A stretch of 41,070 bases of DNA, taken from contig JAJDUS010000073.1 of NCBI GenBank assembly GCA_022826535.1, forward strand, positions 1 to 41,070. The letters are read 5' to 3'. This stretch comes from Prochlorococcaceae cyanobacterium jk18x1bzbins.87. GTDB lineage: Bacteria; Cyanobacteriota; Cyanobacteriia; PCC-6307; Cyanobiaceae. This document shows positions 2,140 to 23,300 of the stretch, in pieces; within the stretch, counting starts at the first letter, position 1; the number at the start of each line of letters is the position of its first letter. The notes beneath the pieces are model-generated. The model was not told where the DNA came from. It did no database searches and worked only from the letters and a program-made list of their open reading frames with translations. Both the position numbers and the translations under genes were made by a program.

Positions 2140-2142
2140 TAG

Positions 2143-3190: not shown

Positions 3191-6100
3191 CCCTAAAGCC
3201 TTCAGGAAGTCCTCCCGTGAATCGCTCCTCCCGCCGCTTCCCGCCAGTTCCATGGCCCGCTGTTGTGGAAACAGGGGGCTGCCGGGAACCCACAGTTCAC
3301 AGCTCTCGCTGTGGTGGTCGTAGTAGGTGGGATCACAGGTGATGCGGAGTTGCTGCCTCAGTCCGGGTTGGGTCCAGGCGAAGTCCCGTTGGCCGATCCT
3401 GCGGGCGCCGCAGCCTGGCGGCAGCAGCTCAGGGCGTTCAAGGATGGCCTCCAGATCCTGCAAGCTCAGGGGTGGCGGCTGCAGTTGGTTCACCACCTGC
3501 CCCATGGCCTCCGGATCCTGCCCATCGTCCAGGTCAAGGCCGTGGACTTCTGGCACCTGCTGCACCGCCGCCATGGCAAGGTCCCGTGCTGTTTGGCGGT
3601 GCTCCCGGCCAACCATGACGGCCCGGCCAATGGCGACGGAGGCAGCCTCGGCCAGGATCGGCTGCAGCGTCCCCACCACCTGCTCAAACATCTGAATGCG
3701 ATCCTTGAGGGCCTTGTAGACATCGGTCTCCACGGTGCCTTCCAGGTGAAGGTTGATGACCTGCATTTTGGGGTGCTGCTGACCGATGCGGTCGATGCGG
3801 CCAATACGCTGCTCCACCCGCATGGGGTTCCAGGGCATGTCGTAGTTGATCAAGGCGCCGCAGAACTGGAAGTTGAGGCCTTCGGCGGCGGCATCGGTGC
3901 AGAGAAGGATCCGGGCAGCCCCCTGGCGGAAGCGTTGTTTCGTGTCTTCCCGGGTGAGGCATTGCCACACTCCTCCCCTGTCGAGGAACTGGCCCCCCTT
4001 GCCGGTGAAGGCCATCAGGCTGGTGTGGCCTGCGGCCACCAGCAGTTGCTTGAGCGCATCCACCGTGTCGGTGTATTGGGAGAAGACAATCACCTGGCGA
4101 TAGCCTTCTGCCTGCAGCTCATCCAGGGCGCGCCGTAAGGCATCCCCCTTGCTCTCCTGCCCCATCAGGGGCCGGGCCTGCTCCAGCAGTTCCCTGACGG
4201 CATTGCGCTCCTCCCGCAGGGACATCGCCTCAAGTGTGTGCCCCATCCCTTCGGAGTCCATGGTGAGTTCACTGCCAAGGTCCTCGTCTTCGCTGGCGGC
4301 CACATCGTCCTCGTCCGGTTGCTGGAGTTGGCCGCTCAGACGCTTGTCCAGTGTGGCCACCAGGGCCGCCACGCTGCTGGCCAGCCGCCGGCGGTAAATG
4401 GTCATCACGAAGCCCACAGCAGATCTTGTCTGAGCATCGGCCTTGCCGTACTGGGTGGAAATGAAGTCCTCCACCGCGTCGTAGAGGACCCGTTCCTGGG
4501 CGCTGCTCTCCAGGAAGCAGTCCTCCACGTGCCGTTGGCCGATAGCCAGATCCATGGCCCCTCGCTGCTGGTAGGCCCGCAGCAGATTGCGGCTGTGGCG
4601 GGAGATCAGGCCCTGCACCGGTGTCCAGCGCCTGGCCAATGCCAGGACAGCCCGGCGCGACTCAATATCCAGATTGCGGCGGGAGAGGGGATCCCGATCC
4701 TCCAGGGCATGCAACACCTTGCGGCGCTTGAGTCTTGACTCCCGCAGCGCTTCAGGGAAGGCGGAAAGCGGCAGCGCACCGAAGTGGTCCACTGTGCTTT
4801 GCCAGAGCTGGGCCAGGGCGGCCATGGTGGCGTCATCCGGGTTCTCCTGCTCCACCCATTGAAAAAAGTGGCTGAAGGTCTCCTCCGTCCATTGCGGGGG
4901 CAGGCCCAGCAGACCCAGCAAATCCCACACCTCCAGAGGACTCACCTGCATGGGGGTGGCGGTGAGCAGCAGCAACCCCTGGGTGCGGGACCGGAGTTGT
5001 TGCATGAGTTGCATCATGGTGTTGGGCCGCTGGCGCTCTACGCCACAGCCGCTGGCATCCCGGCGGGTGCGGGCGTGGTGGGCTTCATCCAGCACCACCA
5101 GGTCCCAGGGTTGAGCGTCCAATACCTCCTGCTGGCGCTCCCGGCGCCGCAACAGATGACTGGAAACCAGCACACAGGGTTCCACCGTCCAGCCGGAGCG
5201 GTCCACCGGCTGGGACGTGCCGCAGGGCCGCAGGGGCGTGGCTTGCCACTCCAGGGATTTTCCGGTGTAGATGGGCCAGTCGAGGGCGAACTTCTCCCGC
5301 AGCTCCCGCTGCCACTGCTTGAGGATGGAGGCTGGCGCCATCACCAGGATGCGTTGCGCCCTGCCGCTCAGCCAGGCCTGGCGCAGCAGCAGACCAGCTT
5401 GAACCGTTTTGCCCAGACCCACCTCGTCGGCGATCAGCAGCCGGGGCGGCCAGCGTTGCCAGAGCCGCTGAAAGGCTCTGTGCTGGTGGGGCCATGGGGT
5501 GACAGCGCTGGTGGCTTCCCCAACGCGCTCGCTACCGGGCAGGCCACTGGCGGCCACGTGGAGCACGTAATTCCAGACAATGCGGCGGCGCTGGTCAATG
5601 TCTGACGGGGCAGCGGGCATCGACTCCGGCCGGGGCTCAGCCGGTGGCGGCGCCGTGACGTGGGCCCTGAGACGCTGGGGCAGCCCTTCCGTGGGCTGGA
5701 AAATGGCCAACTGCCGACGGACGGCATCGGGTAGGGTGAAGGTGCGGGCCCCGTCGTCCCGATTCTGCCAAAGGCGCAGAAAGCCGGCCTCCAACTCGTC
5801 AATGTCCTTCTCGCCATCGCGCTGCCAGGAACAGAACGTGGTCAAGGACTCGTAGTTGCTGCTCCAGCCGTTGGGGGTTTCGTTGACGCTGCCGCTGAAG
5901 GCCAGGCGCTGGCCATGGCAGTCTTCAATGATGCCTTCCTTGGCGTGGAAGATGGCGCCGTCATTGGCCACCTGCCCATGGTGGAGGGGCAGGGCCACAC
6001 GGATCTCCAGGTGGCCATGGTCCACCAGCCAGGCCAGCAGCTCAGCTCCCAAGGCCCCATCATCCTCGCCACCCGGTTGCACATGCCGGAACGGAAACGT

Positions 6101-6406
6101 GCGCACCAGACGATCACTCAGCACTTGCTCCACTGCCGCGCCGTTGGCAATGGCGGTGATGTCCTGCTGGCTGAGAAAAACACCGGTGATCAGCCGCATC
6201 TGACCATGGCCGCGCCCATCCGGCGTTGCGGCCGCCAACTGCTCCACCCCGTCCAGCACCTGGAGCAAGGCGCGGCTGGTGAAGTAGCCCGTACTGCGCC
6301 AGTAGCGCACCGCATCCATCAGCGCCGGCTTGTAGAAACCCTCCAGCAAGCTCTCCACAGAGCTGCTGAAACGCCGTTTCCAAGCATGATCGGCAAGCCC
6401 GGCCAT
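2984..6406 (-). CDS. PLD-like / SNF2-family helicase of an Hma- or DISARM-like defence set
   Basis: A large two-part protein. The N-terminal ~250 residues carry phospholipase D-like signatures (FHAKEG near 154, FSGSVNET near 171 followed by GWSSNYES). The rest is an SNF2/HepA-type ATPase: Walker A in ADEVGLGKT (~326), DEAH (~440), TATPMQ (~482), VIVFSQY (~772) and RIGRIDRIGQ (~867). It should translocate on DNA. Its neighbours, a DUF1156 methylase 57 bp upstream and a distant DUF499 ATPase, match the helicase-methylase-ATPase (Hma) grouping described from defence-island surveys. ATG 6406 is preferred over an in-frame TTG at 6430; neither has a clear ribosome-binding site. Residues after about 1072 are encoded by repeat R1, so the last ~70 residues, including a Thr run and a Gly run, are foreign read-through. 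Confidence 0.85.
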   Translation of the reverse strand: MAGLADHAWKRRFSSSVESLLEGFYKPALMDAVRYWRSTGYFTSRALLQVLDGVEQLAAATPDGRGHGQMRLITGVFLSQQDITAIANGAAVEQVLSDRLVRTFPFRHVQPGGEDDGALGAELLAWLVDHGHLEIRVALPLHHGQVANDGAIFHAKEGIIEDCHGQRLAFSGSVNETPNGWSSNYESLTTFCSWQRDGEKDIDELEAGFLRLWQNRDDGARTFTLPDAVRRQLAIFQPTEGLPQRLRAHVTAPPPAEPRPESMPAAPSDIDQRRRIVWNYVLHVAASGLPGSERVGEATSAVTPWPHQHRAFQRLWQRWPPRLLIADEVGLGKTVQAGLLLRQAWLSGRAQRILVMAPASILKQWQRELREKFALDWPIYTGKSLEWQATPLRPCGTSQPVDRSGWTVEPCVLVSSHLLRRRERQQEVLDAQPWDLVVLDEAHHARTRRDASGCGVERQRPNTMMQLMQQLRSRTQGLLLLTATPMQVSPLEVWDLLGLLGLPPQWTEETFSHFFQWVEQENPDDATMAALAQLWQSTVDHFGALPLSAFPEALRESRLKRRKVLHALEDRDPLSRRNLDIESRRAVLALARRWTPVQGLISRHSRNLLRAYQQRGAMDLAIGQRHVEDCFLESSAQERVLYDAVEDFISTQYGKADAQTRSAVGFVMTIYRRRLASSVAALVATLDKRLSGQLQQPDEDDVAASEDEDLGSELTMDSEGMGHTLEAMSLREERNAVRELLEQARPLMGQESKGDALRRALDELQAEGYRQVIVFSQYTDTVDALKQLLVAAGHTSLMAFTGKGGQFLDRGGVWQCLTREDTKQRFRQGAARILLCTDAAAEGLNFQFCGALINYDMPWNPMRVEQRIGRIDRIGQQHPKMQVINLHLEGTVETDVYKALKDRIQMFEQVVGTLQPILAEAASVAIGRAVMVGREHRQTARDLAMAAVQQVPEVHGLDLDDGQDPEAMGQVVNQLQPPPLSLQDLEAILERPELLPPGCGARRIGQRDFAWTQPGLRQQLRITCDPTYYDHHSESCELWVPGSPLFPQQRAMELAGSGGRSDSREDFLKALGRCHGKRPGASHSGVQSRTRGSIQATSTSTTTVITTPPTVDSGPAGSAGLPGGGGGGKTRGSNSETETW

Positions 6407-6478
6407 GGTTTCAGAGTTGCTTGTGGGCAAGGAGGGCGCTTCATCCCAACTTTAGGGGGAATCAGTCCAACAAAGCCG

Positions 6479-9463
6479 TCAGCGGGTCGCCAGGTCCCCC
6501 ATGGCCAACTCCAGTTGCTTGGGTGTGCCCACCTGCTCAGCAAAAGCCAGGCGGCGCAAGTTCTCCAGGGCTTCAAAATCGGACGCCGCCGGCAGCGCCG
6601 CCTTCACGGGATCAAAACCGGTGTAACGGGCCGAGAGGGGCAACACCTCCAGCACCGCCTCCAGGGCGGTAAGGAAGTCAACGCTCTTGGCCAGGTTGTT
6701 GTCGCTCACCACCTGCTGGGCGGCATTGAGGTCCGTGGCCCTGGCCCGGTGGGCGCAATGGTGCAGGGCGTCAATCCAGGCGCGGCCGCCGTCAGGCGCC
6801 CCCAGCTTGCCCTTGCCGGCCCGGGTGGAGCTATCCCAGAGGATCAGGTTGCTGGTCTTCTTCTCCGCCAACGTCCCCACCACCTTCTTGTCCAGATCCA
6901 GACCCACCACCCGGGCCAGGCGCAGGGCCTCATCGTAGGGGAACTGGGGCGCCGCGAAGGCATCCCAGGCCAGCACAAACCACTCCGTGAGGGGATCCAG
7001 CCGGGCATGCCGCCGACCGGACGCGAGGGTTTCCATGCGCCAGGCCTTCACCTCCCGCCGGGCGGCATCCAGGGCGTCATCAGGGGTAACGGCGTAGGGG
7101 TCATGGTCTGCCAACCGCTCATCCAGGGTGGTTTGACGCCGCCCCCGCCGCCTGCCCGTCTCATCCATGGGCTTGGGTTGGCCCCGTTTGATAGGCCAAT
7201 GGCGGGAAAATTCCTCCAGCGCCGGGCCAAAACAGGAGAGATACAGATCCACGCCGCGGATGCCCGCCGCCTGGAACTGGGCAATGCGTTGGCGCACGGC
7301 CGCCTTCAAGCGGGGTTCCAGGTCTTCCCAATAGCGCACCCCATCGGCAGGATCCTTGGCCGGTCGCGGGCGACACACCAGCAACACCGTGCTGTTGGCG
7401 GCGGACTTGTCCTTGATGTGCAAAGAGCCCTCCGCCTCGGTATTGATGGGCCAGGAGGCGGTGATGGCAAAACCGGCATCCATCAGCCCCTTGGTGAGGG
7501 CATCCCAGGCGCCGGTGGCCTTGTGGGTGAACATCACGGTCATCACCCCATCCCCCTTGAGCACCCGGCGGCACTCGGCAAAGATGGCCGCCATCTTCTG
7601 CTGGTAGTCCAGCCCCGCCAACGCCTTGGCACCCTTTTTACCCCGGTGCAGCGCTGGATTGGCCACTGCCTCGTTCTCCTTGTCGGTGAGCGGGGCCATG
7701 AAAAGATCGGGATAAAGCAATCCGGCGGTGCGCTTCAGCCACACATAGAAGAAATCGCTCAGCTCCCCATACATGACGTTGTCGTAGTAGGGGGGATCCA
7801 TCACCACCACATCCACCGCGCCATCCGCCAGGTGGGTCATGGAATCCCCGGAGCCGCAGGAGATCACCACGGGGGGTGCTATTTTGCTCCCAACTGCTGG
7901 GCTGGTTGTTGATAGTAAAGGGCCAGAGGTTGGAGGGACTGATGGGTTCGGTGAAGTCAACGCGATTAATTCACCAATACACTTGGCAACCTGATTGAAG
8001 GCCCAATCATAGCCAAGGCCCACAACAAGACATGCCATTTCCGCATAGGACCATTTGATCGGGAAAGCGTGCTGGCGGAAAGTGTGGTCCATAACCTCAC
8101 GTTTGGCGTGCCAAGTAACGCAGCGCGAATTATAGTCAAGTAGCTTATCCAACGCCAAAGCGATATACCCCAGCGCCGCCCGGGTGCAGTCACTCAAGCC
8201 TTCGGGGTTTGCAGACTCCTCATTCACCAGCTCCCGGAATATCTCCACGCTGGTGCCGTGGCACAGCAGTTGGCGGGGTGAGAATAAATCACGCCAGAGG
8301 GGCATCCCGTACTGGATGGGGCGGTCGTCGTTGCAGATTTCGGGAAAGCGCTCATTGGGTACCATGTCCAACGCCTCCCACTCCGGCAGCTTGTCGGCCA
8401 AGGCGGCGGCGATGGCGGCGCTGTTGTCGTCCTCCGGTCGTGGCGCCCGGTAGCCCCGCTGCCATTTGGCCTTTTTGGGCTTGCCCGTTTTGGTGTATTC
8501 CGTGGGCAATTTGCGTTTGAACACCACCGCGAACAACTGCTCCCCCATGCCGCCAGCCTGGGCCTGGGCCTTCACCTGCTGGCCGTCAATCACCCGGCCA
8601 CAATCGGGATAGGGGCAGGTGGCGTCTCCCCCCTTCACCGTGCCCGCGCTCTGCTCCCCCAGCGCTGCCACAATCTCGAACCCGCAGTGGCGGCTGGTAT
8701 CCCCCGGTCCGGCCCCCAGGTGGGGCGCCACCTTCACCCCCGTGCCGTCGGGCGCCAGCCGCCAGTTGGGGGAAAGGGGCACCCTGCCGCCGCAATAGGG
8801 GCAGGTGATGGTGCGGGTCCATAGATAGCCATCTGGACGGCAGTCGGCTAAAGGCTCAGGAGGAAAAACCCAACCCAGCCGCTCGCGCACACGACGCGCC
8901 AGTTCATGGCCAAGGCGTTGGACCTCATCCACCAGAGCAGAACCGAATTTCGTTGGCCACTCCAAGGTGGCTTTCTCCACCAGCACCGCCACTGGATTGA
9001 TGTCGTTGGCATAGGTGGTGCATCCCAGGCGCAGGGCTTCAAAGGGAATAGCGCCGCCTCCAGTCGTGGGGTCCAGCACAGTGGGCTTGGCGATACCCAG
9101 CTTCCGCGCTTCTTCCAACAGCCAGAATGCTTCCTTCTCGCTGGGCAGGTAGCTGAAAGCGCGGCTGTAGCCGTAGGCATCGGCCCCAAGTCGAACTCCT
9201 TCGCGTGTGGCCTTGGCAATGCGCCGCTTCGCCGCCACCGGATCCCCATGAATCCCCAGCATGTGCATGAAGGTTTTGCGGTCGGCATCAGCGGGCAGGA
9301 GGGAGGCCAGCACCGCCGCCCGGGAAGCCACCAGGGGCCGCCGTGCCCACCAGACATGGAGGTAGTAGATGGGTGGCAACGCCGTCATGGAGCGGCGCTC
9401 CCGCACGCTCTCCTCCCCCAACTCGGCGATGGGCAGCCACGACTCGATCAGGCGGTTGGTCAT
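6479..9463 (-). CDS. DUF1156-family DNA methyltransferase
   Basis: A protein of 994 aa starting MTNRLIESWLPIAELGEESV, the characteristic opening of DUF1156 proteins, followed by HVWWARRPLVASRAAVLAS. An SAM-binding motif is visible at ~131 (DPTTGGGAIPFEALRLG) with NDINPVA further on. A zinc-ribbon-like pair follows (CPYCGG ~221 and CPYPDCG). The catalytic DPPYYDNVMYGELSDFFY of an amino-methyltransferase is at ~554. The role inferred from the family is self-marking in a defence system whose effectors are the adjacent helicase and the DUF499 ATPase. The helicase starts 57-73 bp downstream, so the two are probably co-transcribed. An upstream in-frame start at 9523 would add 20 residues unlike the family; ATG 9463 matches homologues' N-termini. 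No internal lesion seen. Confidence 0.85.
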   Translation of the reverse strand: MTNRLIESWLPIAELGEESVRERRSMTALPPIYYLHVWWARRPLVASRAAVLASLLPADADRKTFMHMLGIHGDPVAAKRRIAKATREGVRLGADAYGYSRAFSYLPSEKEAFWLLEEARKLGIAKPTVLDPTTGGGAIPFEALRLGCTTYANDINPVAVLVEKATLEWPTKFGSALVDEVQRLGHELARRVRERLGWVFPPEPLADCRPDGYLWTRTITCPYCGGRVPLSPNWRLAPDGTGVKVAPHLGAGPGDTSRHCGFEIVAALGEQSAGTVKGGDATCPYPDCGRVIDGQQVKAQAQAGGMGEQLFAVVFKRKLPTEYTKTGKPKKAKWQRGYRAPRPEDDNSAAIAAALADKLPEWEALDMVPNERFPEICNDDRPIQYGMPLWRDLFSPRQLLCHGTSVEIFRELVNEESANPEGLSDCTRAALGYIALALDKLLDYNSRCVTWHAKREVMDHTFRQHAFPIKWSYAEMACLVVGLGYDWAFNQVAKCIGELIALTSPNPSVPPTSGPLLSTTSPAVGSKIAPPVVISCGSGDSMTHLADGAVDVVVMDPPYYDNVMYGELSDFFYVWLKRTAGLLYPDLFMAPLTDKENEAVANPALHRGKKGAKALAGLDYQQKMAAIFAECRRVLKGDGVMTVMFTHKATGAWDALTKGLMDAGFAITASWPINTEAEGSLHIKDKSAANSTVLLVCRPRPAKDPADGVRYWEDLEPRLKAAVRQRIAQFQAAGIRGVDLYLSCFGPALEEFSRHWPIKRGQPKPMDETGRRRGRRQTTLDERLADHDPYAVTPDDALDAARREVKAWRMETLASGRRHARLDPLTEWFVLAWDAFAAPQFPYDEALRLARVVGLDLDKKVVGTLAEKKTSNLILWDSSTRAGKGKLGAPDGGRAWIDALHHCAHRARATDLNAAQQVVSDNNLAKSVDFLTALEAVLEVLPLSARYTGFDPVKAALPAASDFEALENLRRLAFAEQVGTPKQLELAMGDLATR

Positions 9464-9804
9464 CCGTGGGGGCGAATCCTGGGTGGGAAGCCTGGGACCA
9501 GTGCATGACAGTCCTTGGGTCATCTCTTTGTGGGCTTAGCGCCAATGACAACGCACAGACACCCAACTGGTAAGCCCTTGCACCACCGGCCGATTCAAAT
9601 CAGTTGATGGAGAGCAGGAGCAACATGCGGCGAGGCATCCTCCCACGCCCCCCCCCAGAGGGCTCGCGGTGGGATGGCCATTGCCGAGTTGGCAGGCTCA
9701 TCCTTGCGGCCCCCAGCACACAGAGACTCCCATGCCTCCAGAGCCTGGGCAGATCCAGGGACGTGACCTCAGCGCACCTCGTTTGCCCTGGGGAGGAATC
9801 CGCC
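9464..9804. other. Spacer without a recognisable gene
   Basis: Between the methylase start and the first tandem repeat I see no convincing coding frame on either strand. The sequence is GC-rich with CCATGG-like words and a C run (9652-9657). The promoter of the methylase-helicase pair should lie here, but I cannot point to convincing -35/-10 boxes. Confidence 0.5.
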
Positions 9805-10870: not shown

Positions 10871-10967
10871 GGGCAGAAGCCAAGCTGCGCCCCTCTGGGC
10901 AGATCACCAGAACATCGGTGGCTTTGTGATAAGGTGGAGATAAAGGCCTTCTCTCCCGCCATTAACC

Positions 10968-11261: not shown

Positions 11262-11302
11262 TCAAGGATAATCATTAAACTTGCTTGGTCCAACTGAGCC
11301 CC

Positions 11303-11850: not shown

Positions 11851-12375
11851 TCATCGCTTTTTCCTGTCTGGCGATTGCCCCCGCCCGTCAAACAGTGCTT
11901 TTGCCAAATTCCTTGACTGGCCGCATTTGGCCGTCTGAATCGTCAACTGAGCCCCCCGAAAGCGAACTTTTGCCCTATTTAGTTTCTTTAGCTGATCCTT
12001 GTGCAGACCCCCGGCGTGAAACAAAATTGGATGGCAAATAGAACCGCATGACTCCGGGATCATACGTTCAGCAAAACACGCGGCGGCTTGCAGTTTTTCG
12101 CTGATGGGAGTTGCTTTCACTTCCCCAGTCTTAAATTCCAGGGGCGCAACCACCAATTTACCGGCGGGACTCTGGAAGAAGAGGATTGAATCGCATTTCT
12201 TCTCGTTATCGGGAAAATAATTGACCAGACCCTCACCCTCCTTACTTTCCGGGTCGACAATTAAGCGGGGTGATGGTGTGCCACTCAGATCAACTTTACA
12301 ATTGTCCTTAGAGCAAAACTGGCGGCAGTGTTCAGCCCCAATCTTGTCTTGTATGTACTTCAACATATCATTCAT
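11851..12375 (-). CDS. Putative PD-(D/E)XK-like partner of the adjacent ATPase
   Basis: A 174-aa protein of no named family that I recognise. It has a cysteine cluster (C17, C21, C26 in EHCRQFCSKDNCKV). It also has a segment CDSILFF...VVAPLEFKTGEV in which D62, E80 and K82 sit in beta strands spaced as in PD-(D/E)XK nucleases (D-x17-E-x-K). I infer a nuclease-like fold. Its ATG (12375) lies inside the end of the upstream ATPase gene (8-bp overlap), so the two are translationally coupled. Two-gene sets of an ABC/OLD-type ATPase and a nuclease (Septu, Gabija and PARIS are known examples of the general plan) are defence systems. This pair does not match any of those by its second protein as far as I can tell. 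Confidence 0.7.
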   Translation of the reverse strand: MNDMLKYIQDKIGAEHCRQFCSKDNCKVDLSGTPSPRLIVDPESKEGEGLVNYFPDNEKKCDSILFFQSPAGKLVVAPLEFKTGEVKATPISEKLQAAACFAERMIPESCGSICHPILFHAGGLHKDQLKKLNRAKVRFRGAQLTIQTAKCGQSRNLAKALFDGRGQSPDRKKR

Positions 12376-13951
12376 TGATGATTCCTCCTTGGCTTTTGAT
12401 TAGCTCAAGCTGATTCTGTAATTTCGCAGAATCATTGTACAGAGTCTCTGCCACGTCGGCGTAGTCCTCTGGTTCCAGGCCATCAACCCGGTCAAAGGGA
12501 ATTTCCTGCACCGTTGTCCCTTCTCCGTCTTGGCTGTCCTTGAACAACCAGACCCCCACCTCTTGGGGATCCAGCCATGGAGCCGAAGCATCCGGTTCAG
12601 AATCTTCCCCTTGCGCTTGCCTCAATTCCCCTTCCCTTACCAGATTGGCCATTTTCTGCAGCAGCCAGTCACTATGGGTGGTCACCACTACACGAACACC
12701 GGCACGCACAAGGGCGGCCAAGGTTTTCGCCATCTGGGTCTGGGCGGCGGGGTGCAGGTGGGCTTCCGGCTCTTCGATGATGAGCGTGTCTCCAGGCTTG
12801 AGATAGCCACGCATAAACAAGACAATTGGCGTCAACTCGGACACCATTGAGGAGGTGCGGTTCAACCGGATGCTTTGTTGTATTCCCTGGGGACGATAGA
12901 CAAACTCTGGGTAACCTCCAGTTGTAGATTGGTCGATAAGAATATCTCCAGAAAGTATATTCTTCTCAAGATCTTTTGCCAACTTGGCAATTTGCTCGGA
13001 AGCCGCCAGTCTAGAATTTTTTTGGCGTTCATCATACAGGATGAGCCTCCGCACAAAGTCGGCAATAGCGCCAGGGAGTGTGGGAATTTGTGGAGTGGGC
13101 TCAAAGCCCGCGTATGAAGAGCGGCCAACCAAAGCACTAGCGATAATCCGATGACTCTCCATGATGCCACCGCGCACTGCGGGCACATAGAATACGTCAC
13201 TGGCCCACTGATTTTCCGCATCTGGATTGATCAGCAACACCAGGAATTCATGCCAGGCCAAGGGAGGAATCTCTTCTGCCCTCTCGATCTGGCGAAGTAG
13301 CTGAAGCAACCTGTCGTTCCTTCGGCTATTGATTCCTCTGTTACCACCCTGTAAAAGAATGTCTTGAACACTACCGCTTACCGAAGCTTCGTCGCTGGAC
13401 GACTCCACAGCGAATTGCCAAAGGTCTCCGCTTAGATCATTAACATTCAAAGACACTCTCAATCTACCGGACGAAGACTGGCGCATAAGCTCTAGTTCTG
13501 ATTCAACATCAAAACAGTATCGGAGTCGATATAATAAATCAGAGCTAAATTGGTTAGGATCGTTAATATGAGATACTAACTCATTGTGTACAAAGTGAGG
13601 TAATTCCGAGAATTTAATTTGCCCTCTCTGGGTGATGAGCTTTTTACGCATCTCCTCAAGTGTCTTTCCTGGAATCTCTATTGGTTCCCAGTAACCCGGC
13701 GGCATGTGGAGATCCATGTACCAGCGTTCGGGCAGGGGAAACCGGGGAAAGCCTGCGAAAACACCATGCAGTGTATAGATCAGAAGGGCAAGATAGGTCT
13801 TCCCCGTGTTGCTTGGTCCCACAAATACGGTGAGCGGCCTCAGTTGGATGTTGGCATGCGCCACAGGCCCGAAGTCCTGCACCTCAAGGCGGACGTTGGG
13901 CTGCCCAAACTGCGGCGTCTCATTAGCGACGGAAGCCTCATGGTTAGCCAT
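12368..13951 (-). CDS. AAA/ABC-type ATPase (RecF/OLD-like) of a two-gene defence candidate
   Basis: A 527-aa protein with an N-terminal strand 'VRLEVQDFGPVAHANIQLRP' and Walker A GPSNTGKT at 45-52. Walker B is LIIEEPEAHLHPAAQTQMA at about 388, followed by VRVVVTTHSDWLLQKMANLV (D-loop/switch His in TTHS). The absence of a long Rad50-type coiled coil and the position of Walker B place it with the single-chain AAA_15/AAA_21 ATPases common in defence loci. There is no TOPRIM domain at the C-terminus, so it is not a complete OLD nuclease; the nuclease function may be supplied by the coupled downstream gene. The module is AT-richer than the phycocyanin genes, suggesting acquisition by transfer. Confidence 0.85.
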   Translation of the reverse strand: MANHEASVANETPQFGQPNVRLEVQDFGPVAHANIQLRPLTVFVGPSNTGKTYLALLIYTLHGVFAGFPRFPLPERWYMDLHMPPGYWEPIEIPGKTLEEMRKKLITQRGQIKFSELPHFVHNELVSHINDPNQFSSDLLYRLRYCFDVESELELMRQSSSGRLRVSLNVNDLSGDLWQFAVESSSDEASVSGSVQDILLQGGNRGINSRRNDRLLQLLRQIERAEEIPPLAWHEFLVLLINPDAENQWASDVFYVPAVRGGIMESHRIIASALVGRSSYAGFEPTPQIPTLPGAIADFVRRLILYDERQKNSRLAASEQIAKLAKDLEKNILSGDILIDQSTTGGYPEFVYRPQGIQQSIRLNRTSSMVSELTPIVLFMRGYLKPGDTLIIEEPEAHLHPAAQTQMAKTLAALVRAGVRVVVTTHSDWLLQKMANLVREGELRQAQGEDSEPDASAPWLDPQEVGVWLFKDSQDGEGTTVQEIPFDRVDGLEPEDYADVAETLYNDSAKLQNQLELIKSQGGIINE

Positions 13952-14678: not shown

Positions 14679-15653
14679 TCACTTCTTTGTCAGCTTGGGA
14701 CCAATGTAGACCACATAGACTGGTTGTCCCGGTTGGATGGGCCAGGAGAAGTGGAGGCGAAGCTGTAAATGTCGCTCTTTACCATGGTAAGGGCAAAAGA
14801 GCTGATGGTCAGGACGCTCTGGATGGGGGAAGATCAGCTTCTCTTTGAAACGCTGCTTCTCCGTCTCTGATGAGTCACTAAACCATGCAGCCTTACCCGT
14901 AAAGTGTTTTTTGTAAATTTGTTGATCTTCTACTGATTGCGCTCCGTCTTTGTCACGTGCATCGGCAAGTTGACTAAGAACATCAAGACGTGCCACCAAA
15001 GTCTTTGCCGAGCACTGAGCAAAAGGAAGTTTAGCAAGTGGCTCAAAGCAGTCCTCTGCAAAAGTCAGTCTACTGAACTGGCTTAACGCAGTATTCTTTA
15101 GGGCGCTCCATGAACGAATTAGTGGCTCTACATCTTGTAAGTTGCTCTTTAATGTGCTGAGATCCAGAAAGTTGTCAATGTCCACCGATTGGCCTCCTGA
15201 TTGGCCATTACCGTCTCGATAGATAACATTCACAGGGGAGAACTCCCAATCGGAAGGCTTAATGCTGACAATTCCGCACGCAGAACCGCCCAACATTCGA
15301 AATGCAGCCTCACCAACTGCAGTATCCGTAACAACTTTGTGATCTTTATTGACACATTTCAGTAAATCGTTCTCGTTATGCTTGCGTTGTTCCTGGGCAT
15401 CCCAGAATGGGCCTTTAGTGAGCCAAAGCATGATTGCTCGGCGTTTATTCTTGTCCTCCAACTGATTGATCGTTTGCTGCATTGAGAATCTCTGATCAGG
15501 ACTGCTGTTGACAAGATTGCTATTGCAGTACACTTCCCGATCGAAACGCTTCGCAGCGGCACGCATTTCCATCAGCCGCTCAAGAGCCTGGTGAAATGAG
15601 TCGAGGTCATGAAATTGTTCGTGAATCGAGAGATCGTTAAACAGAAGATCCAT
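14679..15653 (-). CDS. Unknown 324-aa protein, last gene of the five-gene cassette
   Basis: The product starts MDLLFNDLSIHEQFHDLDSF. The ATG at 15653 is one base after the TGA of the ATPase gene, so translation is coupled; an upstream in-frame start at 15671 lies inside that gene. No named domain recognised. Visible conserved-looking blocks: MLWLTKGPFWDAQEQRKHNE, DTAVGEAAFRMLGG, PSDWEFSPVNVIYRDG, and a C-terminal HFTGKAAWFSDSSETEKQRF ... FCPYHGK ... LRLHFSWP ... PVYVVYIGPKLTKK. I believe similar hypothetical proteins occur beside ATPase/DUF262 genes elsewhere, but cannot verify it here. The C-terminal F-C-x2-H with nearby His and the invariant-looking acidic residues make a nuclease or effector domain possible. 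Confidence 0.75.
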   Translation of the reverse strand: MDLLFNDLSIHEQFHDLDSFHQALERLMEMRAAAKRFDREVYCNSNLVNSSPDQRFSMQQTINQLEDKNKRRAIMLWLTKGPFWDAQEQRKHNENDLLKCVNKDHKVVTDTAVGEAAFRMLGGSACGIVSIKPSDWEFSPVNVIYRDGNGQSGGQSVDIDNFLDLSTLKSNLQDVEPLIRSWSALKNTALSQFSRLTFAEDCFEPLAKLPFAQCSAKTLVARLDVLSQLADARDKDGAQSVEDQQIYKKHFTGKAAWFSDSSETEKQRFKEKLIFPHPERPDHQLFCPYHGKERHLQLRLHFSWPIQPGQPVYVVYIGPKLTKK

Positions 15654-15654
15654 A

Positions 15655-16809
15655 TCAGTCCCACCCCGCAAAATAGTTCATATCTTTGTCGAACTGGTCA
15701 AAGAACCCGTCTGGCCATCGATCAAGGTTGCCATTGGCATCGATAGCGGGACTTTCCACTTGCGGCGCCATTTGAGATGCCGTGCCTTCTGGCTGTTCAG
15801 ACCGAGGCCGAAAGAAATGCAACTTGACATCCTCACTGGGGAGAGTTTTGTCCTTGACGGCCCGCCGGATGCCGTTCAGCACATGGTCACTGTGGGTCTC
15901 AACCAGCACCTGCACCCCTGCTGCCGCCACCTCGGCAAGAAAACGCCCCATCCTGGTCTGTCCAGCAGGGTGAAGGTGTACCGCAGGGTTTTCAATGAGC
16001 AGCAGGTCTTCCCTCCGGGCCGATAGGGCAGCCACAACCACAGGAAGCACCTGGGTAAGGCCAAAGCCGGTATTGACGGGGCGATGATAGTCCGTAGCGC
16101 TGGAGGTGCGAATCCCCAGGGTGACACTGTTTGTGCGGGGAACCTTGTTGAGGTCCAGCACACAGCCGGGGAAGAACTGTTGCATACGCTTCTCCACCTG
16201 CCGGAGTCGGGTAGGCGGTCTATCGGGCAACACCAGCTTGGGGAGCACCTGATCGTCACGGCCAGAATAAAGGATGCTGATGGTAGATTCTCCCCAAGTG
16301 CCAACAACTGGGGTGTGCTGGGGTGCGTCAAGCGCATACAACTCTCGTGGTCCCATCCTTTCTGCCGTCAGGTAAGTGAGCCGGTGCAACCGTTGGGTCA
16401 GGGAGCTTTTCCCATGGGAAGATGGGAGCAATCTTTGCAGACTGGACGGATTCTTTACCTCCACATCATCAATCTTAACCTGGGTCACCGCCATGGCCAT
16501 GTCTTCACGCTCACCAGTAAACGTCCATTGATAAGGTGTTTCGTCATCCAGCAGGCCAATTATGCACTCTCGACGACCGTAAACCTGGTCAACCACATCC
16601 GCCACAGTGCCCAAATCAATGACAGAGCCATTGAGCATCAGCTTATCCGACCATTCATGGTCGTGCATGGTCTGATGGAGCAAAACCAAGGCCTGCATTA
16701 CTGACGATTTTCCCGAAGCGTTGGTGCCGGAGAGCAGGGTCAGTGGGGCCAAGGGTAGTTGCAGGGACGCGAAGCACTTGAAATACCTGAGATCAAGCTG
16801 TGTGAGCAT
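15655..16809 (-). CDS. AAA ATPase with DUF3696-type C-terminus
   Basis: A 384-aa protein starting MLTQLDLRYFKCFASLQLPL. An AGGAGG lies six bases before ATG 16809, which decides the start over an in-frame TTG at 16812. Walker A SGTNASGKSS is at ~28. Walker B/signature LLLIENPAVHLHPAGQTRMG is at ~267, followed by VQVLVETHSDHVLNGIRRAV. The tail (VKLHFFRPRSE ... IDANGNLDRWPDGFFDQFDK) is the DUF3696 region found on this class of SMC-like ATPases. The gene overlaps the end of the DUF262 gene by 17 bp and runs directly into the next gene. In defence loci such ATPases typically sense or regulate a nuclease partner; here the partners are DUF262 and the 324-aa protein. Confidence 0.88.
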   Translation of the reverse strand: MLTQLDLRYFKCFASLQLPLAPLTLLSGTNASGKSSVMQALVLLHQTMHDHEWSDKLMLNGSVIDLGTVADVVDQVYGRRECIIGLLDDETPYQWTFTGEREDMAMAVTQVKIDDVEVKNPSSLQRLLPSSHGKSSLTQRLHRLTYLTAERMGPRELYALDAPQHTPVVGTWGESTISILYSGRDDQVLPKLVLPDRPPTRLRQVEKRMQQFFPGCVLDLNKVPRTNSVTLGIRTSSATDYHRPVNTGFGLTQVLPVVVAALSARREDLLLIENPAVHLHPAGQTRMGRFLAEVAAAGVQVLVETHSDHVLNGIRRAVKDKTLPSEDVKLHFFRPRSEQPEGTASQMAPQVESPAIDANGNLDRWPDGFFDQFDKDMNYFAGWD

Positions 16810-17992
16810 CAAGAACCTCCTGAATTGCTTGTTGGGCTGCTTGGAAGCGGTGCATCACGCTCCTGGTGCTGCTTGTCCCAAGAGTGATAGCCGCATCAAA
16901 TGCTTGATCCGCCAGGAGTCGGTAGAGGACCTGACGGAGGGGCTTGACATGGTCTTGCACATGGTCCGTTGCATAGTGGGATAGACCGGTAGACATCACG
17001 TCCCACAAGGAGGCATTGATTGGTCTTCGCTTGTCTTGATTAGGTTTGTGCTTCCTGAAGGCATGTTTGTCGAACAGGATAAAGTTATTATTAAGACTTC
17101 TGTGTAGCTGTGCAGACAGTTCTGAAAGCTCAGCTTGTTGCATGTTGTTCATTTGCTTGAGGCAATTAGCAAGAAATTTATCCATGTCAGCACAGTAACT
17201 ATCATGACCAAGTAGCTGAAAAGCACAGAACCGATTCACGAATTCTCGATCTCTCATGGTTTTCTCATTGAGGCTTTTTCCGGTTGCCTTTAAGAAGATT
17301 TGGGACTTTGATTCCTCCTTAAGAAACCTTGTGCCTTCACCCATATACAGACAGTTGCGCATTTGTTGCCTGGTAAGTGGAACACTGTCATTCACCCTTT
17401 CAAAAATGTCTAGCTGGGCACTCTCTGACACTTTTGCATCAATAAGATAGAAGATGAGATTACAATCTTCGATTCGATTCTGGAGCTTGGTTGGCAGATC
17501 CATAAAGTAATTGCCGTTTAGAGAATCTCGATGTGGCAATTTCAGCTTTAATTGGTTCTTTAAAAATCGTTGAAAGGTGGATAGACGCTGCAATCCGTCC
17601 ACAACAATCATCCGCCCTTGTTTATCCTCTGCCAGATAGAAGACCGGCAGAGGAATACGCATAATCACTGACTCAATTAACTTGCTCTGCTTGTCTAGTG
17701 ACCAAATAAAATCCCTCTGGAAGTCGGGATTCATGATGTACCTGTCCTCCTGGTCAATCCGTCGAATCACCTCATAGATGGTCCGAACCTCATTGCGGAT
17801 TAGCAGTTCGTCCAGAGGATAGTCACCCCATGAACCCGGGTCTGAGTCCAGGCCTTCGACATCTTCACTGCGTTCATTGCCATTGGCCGCTTGGTCAAGC
17901 GGATCATCCCCCAGCGTCTTAGGCTCCAGTTGAGGGCCTTGTCCAGCTTCATCGTCATTGCCAGGCCAGGCGGCTGGGTCAGCTTGGGTCAT
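16793..17992 (-). CDS. DUF262-domain protein (ParB/GmrS-like)
   Basis: The DUF262 core begins around residue 70: TIYEVIRRIDQE, NPDFQRDFIWSLDKQSKLIE, SVIMRIPLPVFYLAEDKQGR, MIVVDGLQRLSTFQRFL and DLPTKLQNRIEDCNL, with ERVNDSVPLTRQQMRNCLY further on. The DGxQR motif is the ParB/Srx-like nucleotide-binding signature shared with the N-terminal half of GmrSD-type enzymes. There is no DUF1524 (HNH) domain, so it is not a complete GmrSD nuclease. ATG 17992 is preceded by aaagggag at good spacing. A GTG at 18079 overlapping the upstream stop is the alternative and would add 29 residues. The first ~60 residues are acidic and probably disordered. Confidence 0.85.
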   Translation of the reverse strand: MTQADPAAWPGNDDEAGQGPQLEPKTLGDDPLDQAANGNERSEDVEGLDSDPGSWGDYPLDELLIRNEVRTIYEVIRRIDQEDRYIMNPDFQRDFIWSLDKQSKLIESVIMRIPLPVFYLAEDKQGRMIVVDGLQRLSTFQRFLKNQLKLKLPHRDSLNGNYFMDLPTKLQNRIEDCNLIFYLIDAKVSESAQLDIFERVNDSVPLTRQQMRNCLYMGEGTRFLKEESKSQIFLKATGKSLNEKTMRDREFVNRFCAFQLLGHDSYCADMDKFLANCLKQMNNMQQAELSELSAQLHRSLNNNFILFDKHAFRKHKPNQDKRRPINASLWDVMSTGLSHYATDHVQDHVKPLRQVLYRLLADQAFDAAITLGTSSTRSVMHRFQAAQQAIQEVLDAHTA

Positions 17993-18075
17993 GGTGTTGC
18001 TCCCTTTCTCTTGCAGGGATAGCTTAACCATAGTTCTCTGCCTTGATCTGCCTTGACAGTATACTGGCTCATGGC

Positions 18076-19272
18076 TCACCCCGCTAACTCCTCACCTTCA
18101 GGTGCCACTTCCTCCTCGCTCTCATTGCGGAGGACACCCTCAACCTGGGCATTGAGCAACCGCCAACGCTGGCCTTTGCGTTCCAGGTCACCTGTCAAGA
18201 CCACCATCGCTTTGTCCTTATGGGCCTGAAGCGCTCTCCCATAGTCCGACTGTTCCAAGATTGCTGTAACAGCTTGTTGTTTGCCATCGATGTGGGTTGT
18301 GAGATGGACGGTTCCGTCATCCTTTGTTTCCGAGCGCTTCAAGAGTTGGACAAAGCCGGGGAGATGAACCCCCTCTCGCGGCGCCCGGTCCCGAAACCGT
18401 CGGGCCGCTTCCTGCAGGATGGGTGAATCTGTCCTGCCGAACTGAACAAGCGCTTCAGGCAAGGACGATAGTCTGGTTTGAGCCCAGGAGACGCCAATAT
18501 CCATTTTGGGGAAGGGTCCAATGAGTCGCACCAGGGCATCGCACAGATTCGCGCTGACACCGTTCTCTACCTGATTGGCAAAGGCATCAGTGTCACCAGC
18601 CATTGTTTTCTCGGTGCTTTCACGGGCTGCTTTCAGCGCCTCAACCAAGCGTCTCGTCATTTTGCGCTGGATGGGAGTATCCTCGCCCTCGCCCTCGTCC
18701 CCCCAGTCGTCTGATAGGCCTGGAAATAGCTCTTGCTGCAGTGGCTGCACTAGCGGCGGCACAACCGGTGTCAACACCGTAATGACAAAGCTGCCCTGAT
18801 GGGTCTGCCCCAGGCGCACCTGCTCTAATAAACTCTTCGCTTTTTGGTTTGCGCCAGCACGGTAGACTGGTTGTGGGTTGTTATCAAGGGAGCAAGCAAC
18901 CGACTGGATGAGATCGCGGGCGCCACCAACAAGGTCAACGCCCTCGTTGAGGCCCAAGCTGCCGTCGTCGCTATCGGCAACGCGGATGCGGACCACATCC
19001 CGGTCACCCGTCACCAAGGACCGGTAGATGGTCCGTTCGTCCTGGTCTGCCACCTGGGCAAAGACCTTGATCAGCGTTGAAACGACGGTTGCGTAGTCGC
19101 CCAGATGGTCCGTTCGCGGAACAATGATCTCTGGCCGATCCTGGCCGGCGTAAACATGGGAATGCACCCGGTAGATCTCGCCCCGCTGCCAGCCAGCACT
19201 ACGGGCATAGGCCGCAAGGGCCGTTGGGGAAATGGCTTTCAGTGCTTCCCGGTCGTGAATGGTGGCTTTCAT
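18076..19272 (-). CDS. Unknown 398-aa protein of the five-gene cassette
   Basis: The product starts MKATIHDREALKAISPTALA; the ATG overlaps the stop of the DUF4365 gene (TGATG), so it is coupled. No named domain recognised. Visible blocks: GWQRGEIYRVHSHVYAGQDR, PEIIVPRTDHLGDYATVVST, VRIRVADSDDGSLGLNEGVD, QPVYRAGANQKAKSLLEQVR, LGQTHQGSFVITVLTPVVPP. A central acidic linker (DDWGDEGEGEDTP) and a C-terminal region (AVTAILEQSDYGRALQAHKD, WRLLNAQVEGVL) follow. No membrane segment or signal peptide. Encoded between two nuclease-fold proteins and ahead of the ATPase, it may be a structural or sensor subunit; this is inference. Confidence 0.75.
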   Translation of the reverse strand: MKATIHDREALKAISPTALAAYARSAGWQRGEIYRVHSHVYAGQDRPEIIVPRTDHLGDYATVVSTLIKVFAQVADQDERTIYRSLVTGDRDVVRIRVADSDDGSLGLNEGVDLVGGARDLIQSVACSLDNNPQPVYRAGANQKAKSLLEQVRLGQTHQGSFVITVLTPVVPPLVQPLQQELFPGLSDDWGDEGEGEDTPIQRKMTRRLVEALKAARESTEKTMAGDTDAFANQVENGVSANLCDALVRLIGPFPKMDIGVSWAQTRLSSLPEALVQFGRTDSPILQEAARRFRDRAPREGVHLPGFVQLLKRSETKDDGTVHLTTHIDGKQQAVTAILEQSDYGRALQAHKDKAMVVLTGDLERKGQRWRLLNAQVEGVLRNESEEEVAPEGEELAG

Positions 19273-19775
19273 CAGAAGACCTCCCCCTTCCGAGACCGTT
19301 CCATAAGTGTTTGCAGCGCCTCAACATCCAATCGGTTGTCCTCAGGGATGTGAACGGTAACCGTTACCCTGTTGCTGACCTCCCCTTTCCCTTGCAGGCT
19401 CAGCCAGTAAGCCCGACGCCGCAGAGTGAGTTCCTCAGGGGTGACCATCATCCAACGGGACTCCTCCTGCGGTAGCTCCAACACCACCAATAGCCGAGGA
19501 GTCTGGGTTGGACAGCGGAGATCGTCGTAGTTTTTGATGCTCAATGAAGGAAATGAGCGGCAACCGTTCCGTCCTGCGCCCAGCGTTGCCGTCGCTTTCA
19601 GTTGCAGATCCAGAGCCGGATGCTGCGGCTCGCCTCCGTGAATGGACACATCAATACTGTCCCGGTCCAGGTCCCGTTCGGAGATGGTGAACCCTGCCCG
19701 CGCCGCTAGCGCCTTGACATAGACAAGAGATAACCTCTCCTTCTGGTCCGCCCCGGTGAGCATCTTTTGCGTCAT
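19272..19775 (-). CDS. DUF4365-domain protein, first gene of the five-gene cassette
   Basis: A 167-aa protein with the DUF4365 order of motifs: GADQKERLSLVYVKALAARA, then DRDSIDVSIHG, then ALDLQLKATATL, NYDDLRCPTQTPRLLVVLEL and the closing WLSLQGKGEVSNRVTVTVHI. DUF4365 is a PD-(D/E)XK-related family; the Asp of DSIDVS and the Q-x-K of LQLKAT are the expected metal-site positions. It is the first gene of the run and overlaps the following gene by one base in TGATG. The 87-bp gap upstream, to the small gene at 19863, leaves little room for a separate promoter, so the cassette may be read through from the DUF499 gene. Confidence 0.8.
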   Translation of the reverse strand: MTQKMLTGADQKERLSLVYVKALAARAGFTISERDLDRDSIDVSIHGGEPQHPALDLQLKATATLGAGRNGCRSFPSLSIKNYDDLRCPTQTPRLLVVLELPQEESRWMMVTPEELTLRRRAYWLSLQGKGEVSNRVTVTVHIPEDNRLDVEALQTLMERSRKGEVF

Positions 19776-19862: not shown

Positions 19863-20315
19863 TCAGTGGGCGGAGAGCAGTAGCCGCAAAGCCGCCAGCA
19901 CCCGGCGGGGTTTTTTGCGGTGCATGGCCATGCCCAGCCAGTAGGCAGCTTCTTCCCGGGCCATGGCGTCAATGCCGCGGGCGCAGTTGTCCATGGCGAT
20001 CACGTTGCGCATGGGGGCCAGCAGCTTGAACAGTAACCCCATGGCCATGGCCAACTCCTCCGAGAGCCGGTCACGGCGGGATTCCCCCTTGCGGAGCTTG
20101 GCGAGGCTCACCTTCTCGGTGTTGAGGCGCCGCAGCACGGCCCCCTCCACCAACAGGAGCTTATGGCCGCCGAGGCCGGCAATCCGGCGGGGCTGCTTGA
20201 GTTCCGGGGTGGCGGTGCTGGGCACCTGCCACACTTCCAGCAGCAGGTCACTGGGACCCCGCTGGCGGCTGCGCAGTTCATAGGCGGGGCGGCCTGAGGG
20301 GATGGCAATGGTCAT
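19863..20315 (-). CDS. Small DUF7680-like protein coupled to the DUF499 ATPase
   Basis: A 150-aa protein: MTIAIPSGRPAYELRSRQRG, 'LLLEVWQVPSTA', 'RIAGLGGHKLLLVEGAVLRR', 'SEELAMAMGLLFKLLAPMRN' and a C-terminal REEAAYWLGMAMHRKKPRRV. I believe this matches the small proteins now called DUF7680 that accompany DUF499/DUF1156 genes, but I cannot check it. Its ATG overlaps the DUF499 stop as ATGA, so the two are translationally coupled. It would normally be followed by the DUF1156 methylase; here the two are about 10.4 kb apart because other modules lie between. A fragment of its 3' end recurs at 14283-14347. Confidence 0.7.
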   Translation of the reverse strand: MTIAIPSGRPAYELRSRQRGPSDLLLEVWQVPSTATPELKQPRRIAGLGGHKLLLVEGAVLRRLNTEKVSLAKLRKGESRRDRLSEELAMAMGLLFKLLAPMRNVIAMDNCARGIDAMAREEAAYWLGMAMHRKKPRRVLAALRLLLSAH

Positions 20316-23300
20316 GGACCGCTCAGCTCCAGGCCAATGGTGGCCATCTGGGTGCTCAGGCCTGCCCTGGTGAGGCGTCTGATCCAGTCCTCACCCTGAT
20401 CGCTCCAGGTGAGGGGCGGGGCATAGGTGAGCTTGTATTTGATGTCCAGGGACTTCTCGCCACCCCGCCGCCATTGTCCCTCAACGAAGTCGCGCAGGAT
20501 GGTGGCCTCCTTCGGCGTGCCTTTGAACTCGAAACTCCACTCTGCCGCGCCGTCGCCACTGCTCCAGCCCCCTTCCATCATCTCCACCTGCACCGTGGCG
20601 CCCGGCTCGGCTTTGAGCAAGGCCAGGGGCACAAAGCCGTCACCACTGTTCATTCGCCATGTGAGGGAGCAGACCCCCTTGCCGGAGTTGCCCACCTGCT
20701 GGGCCAACTGGGTGAGGACCGTCTTGATGTTGCCGGTGCGCTCCAGCATCCCTGGGGGTGTTGGGGTTGTGGATGGCGCCACGCCGTGGCCATGGCTGCC
20801 GGCCACCGCATTATTGGCGTTACTGCTGTCCCCACCTCCTGTGAACGCCAAGTCAGGCGCAACAGGTGACGGTTCAGGTGCAGCAGTGCGCGGTGGCCAG
20901 ACGCCCAGCTCCTCCGCCTTCTCCAGCATGTAGACCTTGGCGTCCTCGCTGATGTTCAACGTCCCTGGCGGCTGGTCTTTGCCCTCCAGCCGCTCGCCCT
21001 CCTTGTAGATAAACACCCCTTCATCCAGCCCCATCCGCAGACACTTCTTGAGCACCTCATTACCAAATTACCAATCAGGATGGGCAAGGCGGGGTCGCGG
21101 TGGTACTCATTGCGCAGATCCCGACTGCTCATCACCCCACAGCGCCGCAAAGGGGTTTTGTCAGCCATGAAGTTGGGCGCTGGCGGCGCGTCATCGGGAA
21201 GAATCAACTCCCCGGCTTCCCGCAACACCCGCTCCACCTGCTTTTGCCCCACGCCGGGCTCACTGCTGGCATTGGTGACGGTGATGGCGGCATGGACAAG
21301 GGGCGCCTCCGGCCAGGGGCCGCGCTCGGGGTAGAACACATGGCGATAGGCCTGCTGCACCGCCAGGGCAAAGGCTTGTTGCGCCCGTCCATGGCGCTCT
21401 TTCACCTGCTCCTGCTGGTGGATCTGCAGGCTGGCGAACAGGTCCCCCCGCTGCATCTGTCCCAGGGCCAGTGTGGTGCGGGTCTTGCGCAGCATGTCGT
21501 CCACCTGCAGCCCATCGGCACAGACAAACACCAGGTTGTTGCGGTTGCGCCGTGTGTTGGCGTTATCCCCCCTCTCCTTGAACAGCCGCACCACCAACTC
21601 CGGTAGATGCACGTTGTCTTGCGCCACCGTGTGGCCCTCCCAGTGGAGCACCGCCAGGTAGGGGCCATCCGTATCGTCGGGAATGTCCGCCGGGCTGACC
21701 GGGAACACCACCGGCTCAAAACACTGCCTGGCCTTGGCAAAGATGGCGGCAATGTGGCGGTTCAACTCCTGGCGGACCGTCTCCAAATCAAACTGTCCCT
21801 CCCGTTTTCTCACCATCTGGTTGAGGTTGGCTTCGGTGAGAACGCGCAGCTTGCTGGTGGTGCTGTCGTCCAGGTACTCCGACGCCTCCTGTAAGTGGCG
21901 CACCGCCTTGTCGATAAAGGCGGGATCCAGCCCCGGGGCATAAAGGCTGTAATTCAATTCCAGCCGGCTGAGACCCTTGAGGGGATCGTTGAAGGCCAGG
22001 GAGTGGAGCAGCACCGTGCGGGCTGTCAGGGAGCCATAGGGGGCAAGGCCTGCAAATTCACCCGCATCCAGTTGCTGGGCCAGGGCTTTACCGTCCTCGT
22101 CCGTGGTGCGGGCCACGTCAGCCCGGATTGCTGGAACGAAGGCCTGGAGCCCCAGCTTGGTGGAGATCTCCATGCGGATCCGTTCATTGCCGGGATCAAT
22201 GTGGTGCAGGTGGATGGCGGTGGCGTCACCGGGCTTTTCCCGCCAAAGCTGGGCAACGGTCTGGGCCAGCAGCCGCAACATGCCCCGCACCCGTTGGAAG
22301 TTCTCCAGGGTGGCGGTTTTCTGCATCAGGGTGTCGATGAGCTCCGGATGGAGTGGGTAGCCATTGCCCAACGCCTCGGCGCGATCATCCCTCTGCCGCA
22401 CGGGTGGCAGGGCCTCGACATGGCGGCTCCAGAGGTCCTGGTAGGCCCGCACCACTTCCCCCACCCGACTGCGGTCGATGGATTCAAACAGGCGACGGCA
22501 CAACACCTGCACCGTCTCGTCTTCACTGGTGGGGGTGAGGGCCGTGACCTGTCGTCCCGTCACGGATTGCAGTTCCGCAAAGATTCGATCAATCCGCTGG
22601 TTCTCCTCCCCATAGGCATCCACCGCCTGGCCACCACGGCCCAACGCCAAGGTGAACACCAGCACAGCGTTGGGGGCGGAGTTTACCGCCTTGACCAGAT
22701 CGGTGAGGAAGGGGGTGAGTTGCTCAGCAGCCCGGCCAGCGGCAGGACCCTTGAGCTTGCGCAAATAGATGGACAGCTCGTCCATGAGGATCAGTACGGG
22801 CCGCTCGCCCATGAGTTCCCGTAAGGTTTCTGCTCCGGGAGGCGCCGCACCCAACCGGTCACTGTTGCGGATGCGTCCATAACCACCCCGCCCCGCCAAC
22901 TGCACGGCCAACTCCCCCCAGGGGGTATAGGCCAGGATGTCTCCTCTCATCCGCCGGCCGTTCATGGGGTCGGCGTTCTCCCCGTCAAAAATCGCCACCG
23001 TCACCGGTTGGCCGGGCAGCGTGGCCGGATCCACGAACTCCGCCAGGTTGGGGATCTGCTCGGGTGCCGTGAGGATATGGTTGAGGCCAATCAGAGCATG
23101 GGTCTTGCCGCCGCCATAACTGGTGTCCAGCCGCAGGATGCTGCCCAACTGGTTGTCGGTGCCGGTGAGCCGCCCCACCACCGCCCTGATCAAATCCTTG
23201 AGGCCACGGGTGGGGTGGGTGTTGGCAAAGAATAGGGCGGGATCTTTGTAGAGTTCCGGCGCCGTACCCTTGAGCACCTGACTCAGGTCGGCGGCGAAGT

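Follow-up and report, generated by a model that had tools for sequence, protein, structure and literature searches.

The locus considered here raises the question of whether two overlapping genes of a cyanobacterial contig encode a two-gene anti-phage system and, if they do, whether that system is of a new type. The stretch of DNA analysed, hereafter the window, comprises 41,070 nucleotides of contig JAJDUS010000073.1 (assembly GCA_022826535.1, positions 1 to 41,070) of Prochlorococcaceae cyanobacterium jk18x1bzbins.87. A first-pass annotation, made from the letters alone, had described an ATPase gene followed by a gene for a 174-residue protein with PD-(D/E)XK-like residues and a cysteine cluster, had compared this plan with known two-gene ATPase-nuclease defence systems, and had suggested that it may be a separate type. 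From sequence comparison and by analogy with described systems, we consider it likely that the two genes form a coupled anti-phage module, an own branch of the PD-T4-4/PDC-M47/WonAB kind carried as an accessory cassette in a DUF499/DUF1156/helicase (Hma, "BREX-related") locus, in which the ATPase would license the nuclease.

Both genes are encoded on the minus strand. The ATPase gene (component A, the presumed sensor; 527 aa) occupies positions 12368..13951 and the gene of component B, the presumed effector (174 aa), positions 11851..12375; these coordinates, as well as the overlap of 8 bp, were recovered exactly as first annotated. The start of B and the stop of A share the sequence ATGAATGA (12368..12375, minus strand), and a Shine-Dalgarno-like AAGGAGG (12384..12390, minus strand) is found 8 bases upstream of the B start, within the 3' end of A. 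Judging from this layout, A and B are translationally coupled.

Component A is, by its sequence, an OLD-type ABC ATPase. In Pfam it matches AAA_15 (1.8e-21) and AAA_21 (3.3e-10), with no TOPRIM, HNH or helicase family being reported by that database, and in PADLOC its best match is PD-T4-4_A (4.7e-35), PDC-M47A (4.7e-28) and Old (2.1e-12) being matched as well. Along the protein, the motifs follow in the order Walker A (GPSNTGKTY, residues 45-53; 13793..13819), a signature-like motif (SSMVSELTP, residues 367-375; 12827..12853), Walker B/D-loop (LIIEEPEAHLHP, residues 390-401; 12749..12784) and H-loop (VVTTHSDW, residues 422-429; 12665..12688), all on the minus strand; SSMVSELTP is what we take, from general acquaintance with OLD and ABC motifs, to be the ABC signature. 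The sole PDB sequence relative at E<=0.001 was the OLD-family entry 6p74, aligned with an E of 1e-4 over a short stretch (residues 388-428). No relatives of A were found in plasmids or phages at E<=1e-10. Partial copies of A are present elsewhere in the same genome (G000:C11:225-389 and G000:C18:17061-17426) and in a relative (G002:C58:6377-6568), and these may be remnants or ends of other pairs.

As for component B, both patterns that had been noted in it are present: D-x17-E-x-K, made up of the catalytic-type D62 (12190..12192) and the ExK of E80-F81-K82 (12130..12138), and the cysteine cluster C17-x3-C21-x4-C26 (12298..12327), all on the minus strand. In 5000 shuffles of the 174-residue sequence, the exact D-x17-E-x-K had a chance of 4.9%, the looser D-x8-25-[DE]-x-K of 75%, and C-x2-4-C-x2-6-C of 13%; since shuffled sequences yield such patterns often, the motifs by themselves are weak evidence, and their value therefore depends on conservation. 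D62, E80 and K82 are invariant in all 31 rows of the alignment A6, which represent 30 distinct genes (the L022 and L085 rows being one gene) and of which 8 were picked by motif, whereas 20 obtained by PADLOC profile search, the G004 row and L062 entered without motif picking. That profile search gave 29 loci, 20 of them used directly and 9 left out as duplicates, near-copies, truncated or stop-broken. Loss of E80 or K82 among homologues, which it had been proposed to look for, was seen in none of the 31 rows. The relative from genome G004 is 57-58% identical to the window B and keeps D, E and K together with all 8 cysteines. Four of these, C17, C21, C114 and C151, are cysteines in the window and G004 proteins alone among the aligned rows; C61 and C100 are common to many rows and C26 to some. 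C110 faces a gap in most rows of a second alignment, A1 (18 chosen B proteins), yet is aligned to a cysteine in 22 of the 31 A6 rows, and because the two alignments disagree its status is alignment-dependent. In these alignments, the window and G004 proteins are thus marked by cysteines that are missing from the sister lineages.

B has no family match in Pfam or NCBIfam, and in PADLOC at E<=0.1 the window protein matches PDC-M47B alone, weakly (0.038), with no match to PD-T4-4_B at that threshold; the G004 protein matches PDC-M47B (8.2e-5), PD-T4-4_B (0.0031) and Cas4c (0.027). When the two-row B family was compared with other nuclease sets by hhalign, the PDC-M47B set gave an E of 7.5e-6 with a probability of 84%, the PD-T4-4_B-like set 2.1e-4 with 46%, and the A3 set, composed of the nuclease partners of the ATPases nearest to the window A by score and tree path, 0.0079 with only 5%. 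A scan of 386 genomes with the two-row profile yielded, self-matches aside, 8 matches with E up to 0.01. Three of these lie in long frames (G376, G458 and G354:C290), are all of PDC-M47B type and adjoin an ATPase; the other 5, in frames that are short or interrupted by stops, were not considered further.

For the structure of the 174-residue protein, the AlphaFold2 model of the window B, built on the 18-row alignment, was poor (pLDDT 52.5), and a PDB search with it returned no match at E<=0.001, for which reasons both were left unused; the single PDB sequence match to the 18-row alignment, 7bpn (E 0.054), was discarded. The model of a PDC-M47B-type relative, L062 B, for which A6 served as the alignment, reached a pLDDT of 87 and a pTM of 0.86. 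It has a helix at 3-10, strands at 52-56, 79-84 and 89-97, a helix at 103-127 and a strand at 138-145, that is, the order alpha-beta-beta-beta-alpha-beta with D and ExK on adjacent strands, and its D78, E95 and K97 are the aligned counterparts of D62, E80 and K82 in the window protein. With this confident model, Foldseek gave no match at E<=0.001, and the best VIA match had a Z of 5.0, the tool cautioning that below a Z of 8 the likeness may be no more than a widespread arrangement. Going by their titles, some 42 of the 50 VIA rows belong to PD-(D/E)XK nucleases, many being repeats of the same proteins and each with a weak Z. The fold of the window B is therefore read by homology: the model of the relative displays the nuclease strand order, that of the window protein itself being of too low a quality for a verdict. 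The conservation of D, E and K, the profile comparison with the partners of sister ATPases and the predicted fold of the relative support window B as a PD-(D/E)XK nuclease, and with it the original description of an ATPase with a coupled PD-(D/E)XK-like partner.

Whether such pairs recur can be seen from their distribution in cyanobacteria. A search of 149 genomes for B gave 2 that contain it, its own included; among genome contigs the G004 protein is its one close relative, none was found in viral contigs, and in plasmids none was found with the window B, the G004 B giving one match at E 0.4. For the ATPase, a match at E<=1e-15 was obtained in 28 of the 386 genomes of the phylum, again including its own. 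Outside this genome there were 40 ATPase places, of which the 28 with loci were examined and the 12 without loci left out. In 22 of these 28 cyanobacterial loci, the gene next to the related ATPase is intact and carries the D...E-x-K pattern, so the search for co-occurring pairs that had been suggested did reveal a recurrent association of the ATPase with a nuclease-motif gene. In 3 of the 28 the second gene is broken or truncated (L017, L020, L024), in 2 there is no second gene (L007/L060 and L008/L061), and 1 has another arrangement (L026). A genome of the same genus, G001, carries a different pair, of PD-T4-4 type (L052:1013-2224 and 2169-2786, G001:C42), its ATPase matching PD-T4-4_A at 1.9e-100 and its nuclease PD-T4-4_B at 3.4e-9. 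Three second genes are well above the usual length, at 307-316 aa (L018:2111-3061, L021:363-1292 and L025:2141-3061), and carry the nuclease motif in their first half; for the second protein of L018, neither Pfam nor PADLOC gave a family match.

When 31 ATPase rows were placed in a maximum-likelihood tree, those of the window and G004 grouped on a branch of their own (length 2.52, support 100/100), distinct from the rows of PD-T4-4/PDC-M47, from those of A3 and from those with long nucleases. Nuclease types mapped on this tree change 3 times, the fewest possible, against a shuffled mean of 14.8, the group labels having been assigned by the analyst according to nuclease type, except that the ATPase decided the label of L007 and L008, which have no nuclease, and the broken nuclease gene that of L017, L020 and L024. 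The outgroup, NsnB, is long, its join with the window branch was flagged as possibly false, and for this reason the deep branching order is unsure. On these sequences, the ATPase branches track the nuclease types, and the window pair forms a deep ATPase branch of which two members were found.

How far this branch differs from described systems can now be considered. PD-T4-4, an E. coli defence system (PMC9519451), is listed in PMC10952713 as having an AAA_15 domain together with a PD-(D/E)XK nuclease. The window pair resembles it in combining an AAA_15-type ATPase, which matches PD-T4-4_A, with a PD-(D/E)XK nuclease, but differs from it in that B lacks a PD-T4-4_B match at E<=0.1 and has extra cysteines, and in that A falls outside the branch with the PD-T4-4-type rows. 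To the PADLOC candidate PDC-M47 the window pair is linked by A, which matches PDC-M47A, and by B, which weakly matches PDC-M47B, although the window and G004 ATPases stand in their separate, fully supported branch and not in that of PDC-M47; no paper with the name PDC-M47 was found in the literature searched, a statement confined to that literature. Of WonAB, PMC12137116 reports that this ABC ATPase with a small PD-(D/E)xK nuclease protects V. cholerae, that changes in the ATPase or K71A in the nuclease abolish defence, and that infection is aborted by translation inhibition without chromosomal degradation; the same source assigns WonAB, along with PD-T4-4, to a broader family in which ABC-ATPase sensors are paired with nucleases. 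The likeness of WonAB, as described there, to the window pair is one of architecture only: in both, a small nuclease accompanies an ABC ATPase that has Walker, signature and H-loop motifs. In PMC12839542, OLD-ABC ATPases with HNH, PD-(D/E)XK or PIN nucleases are presented as backup effectors in BREX and in DUF499-centred BREX-related (BR) loci, and 594 taxa are given with such pairings; the window pair shares with the PD-(D/E)XK modules reported there both the pairing and the DUF499-centred address.

Component B also departs from other systems of this general plan. PARIS, Septu and Gabija join an OLD/AAA_15-type ATPase to a nuclease or helicase partner. For PARIS and Gabija this pairing is also stated in PMC12839542. 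Unlike those partners, B has no DUF4435/TOPRIM, HNH or UvrD-like family in Pfam or NCBIfam, in agreement with what had first been claimed, and the AriB-type DUF4435/TOPRIM partner of PARIS was likewise unmatched by B in PADLOC at E<=0.1. The general plan proposed at the outset is thus shared with PD-T4-4, WonAB and the BREX/BR modules. Because the pairing of an ABC/OLD ATPase with a PD-(D/E)XK nuclease is already described in these systems, with PDC-M47 as a further candidate in PADLOC, the suggestion of a separate type is not upheld; as judged by sequence, the window pair is a divergent sub-lineage of a known ATPase-nuclease kind, with extra conserved cysteines.

The genes around the pair bear on what it may be for. 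On the minus strand the window reads, in order, a HmaC-like DUF499 ATPase (20312..23373; PF04465 2.7e-27, HmaC 4.3e-100), DUF7680, the defence-profile pair PDC-M02A (DUF4365) and PDC-M02B (18076..19775), NsnA, NsnB and NsnC (14679..18079; PADLOC 3e-114, 4.1e-106 and 8.5e-116, respectively), A, B, a HmaB-like DUF1156 DNA methyltransferase (6479..9523; PF06634 2.6e-15, HmaB 9.1e-74) and a SNF2/PLD helicase that is HmaA- or PLD_Helicase-like by family matches (2984..6430). The Nsn genes, a defence module in their own right, with DUF262/GmrSD_N, ATPase and NsnC domains, sit between PDC-M02B and A, and a gene with a Pfam PIN_2 domain (11285-11725, plus strand) lies between B and the methyltransferase. 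Between this PIN gene and the methyltransferase, roughly three tandem copies of a repeat of about 356 nt occupy positions 9800-10900, and the density of CCATGG in the gene-free stretches here is about four times that in the genes; the idea of CCATGG as a genome-wide iterated palindrome was dropped, its 73 occurrences in the window facing 73.3 expected from its 5-mers. The remnant of a second DUF499 gene (2131-2844, minus strand) overlaps a DDE-transposase ORF (1649-2233, plus strand), and a 750-aa protein with ankyrin repeats and TerB and DnaJ domains is encoded at 37185-39437 (plus strand).

The corresponding locus of G004 runs DUF499, DUF7680, PDC-M02A, PDC-M02B, A, B and DUF1156; it holds no Nsn genes, the weak NsnB match there lying in the ATPase A itself. 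That of G009 has neither A nor B: it comprises DUF499, DUF7680, a truncated PDC-M02A and DUF1156. As the three gene orders differ, the stretch from DUF7680 to DUF1156 is read as one that carries exchangeable defence cassettes in the window genome, G004 and G009, and since the G009 locus lacks the pair, A and B are taken as accessory and not as part of the Hma core. From these gene orders, one Hma locus carries A+B as a removable insert, which two related genomes have and a third does not. It could be supposed instead that B serves the Hma core as a restriction subunit, cutting under the guidance of methylation and without an effector role of its own. Such a role would suit the G004 arrangement, where PDC-M02B and the DUF1156 methyltransferase immediately flank the pair, with all of these genes on one strand, and the presence of PD-(D/E)XK nucleases near or inside some BR loci, as reported in PMC12839542. 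However, the pair is missing from the G009 locus, in which DUF499, DUF7680 and DUF1156 are present, the helicase already bears a PLD-like domain, and the GC contents of A and B (0.51 and 0.49) lie under that of the methyltransferase (0.64), so that a core subunit seems to us quite unlikely.

The locus may also show signs of wear. The HmaC-like DUF499 gene of the window is split over two frames of 805 and 247 aa, as seen by tblastn with the G009 protein, and is a single ORF of 1025-1047 aa in G004 and G009; the split may be a natural frameshift or an assembly error. At position 94 of B, 30 of the 31 A6 rows have Q and the window protein alone has K, so that reduced activity is conceivable, and K94 may indeed weaken the window nuclease. 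With the split DUF499 gene, the partial ATPase copies elsewhere in this genome (contigs C11 and C18), and the broken, truncated or missing second genes at 3 and 2 of the 28 related loci, this substitution would fit a protein of PD-(D/E)XK fold that is losing or has lost its activity, a decaying cargo in a decaying Hma locus. Yet the A and B ORFs are intact and D, E and K are kept, the overlap and the ribosome-binding site are still present, and the comparison with G004 points to purifying selection on both genes (pN 0.229 vs pS 0.518 for B, 0.251 vs 0.540 for A), pN being less than half of pS in each. Decay is, on this balance, an unlikely account of the pair.

For the anti-phage module that we favour, a course of action can be proposed. 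A would dimerise through its ATP sites and bind B, holding it in check or stable; a cue from infection would alter the ATP-dependent state of A, and B would thereby be licensed to cut nucleic acid, either phage DNA or host RNA, the latter as suggested for WonB. This cutting would end the infection, perhaps abortively, with the pair probably serving the Hma core as a backup. By analogy with WonAB, A would license B and both would be needed. A small second gene that overlaps the first and has a nuclease motif would also be expected of a toxin-antitoxin pair, in which A would merely hold the toxin B and no phage would be sensed. The toxicity of WonB, according to PMC12137116, requires WonA and its ATPase activity, a dependence that speaks, by analogy, against a simple antitoxin role, and we regard a toxin-antitoxin function as very unlikely.

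A further and highly speculative proposal concerns the cysteines of this branch. The nuclease could bind a metal, zinc or iron-sulphur, with C17, C21 and C26 joined by C110, C114 or C151 in a switch, structural or redox, that the ATPase would set; the cassette would stand guard over the Hma locus around it and would fire upon inhibition of Hma by a phage. What the anti-phage module described here would add to the known defence pairs of ABC ATPase and PD-(D/E)XK nuclease is a deep, cysteine-rich branch; and, the pair being present in two related genomes and missing from a third, Hma loci with and without A+B would offer a natural comparison bearing on the backup role of such pairs.
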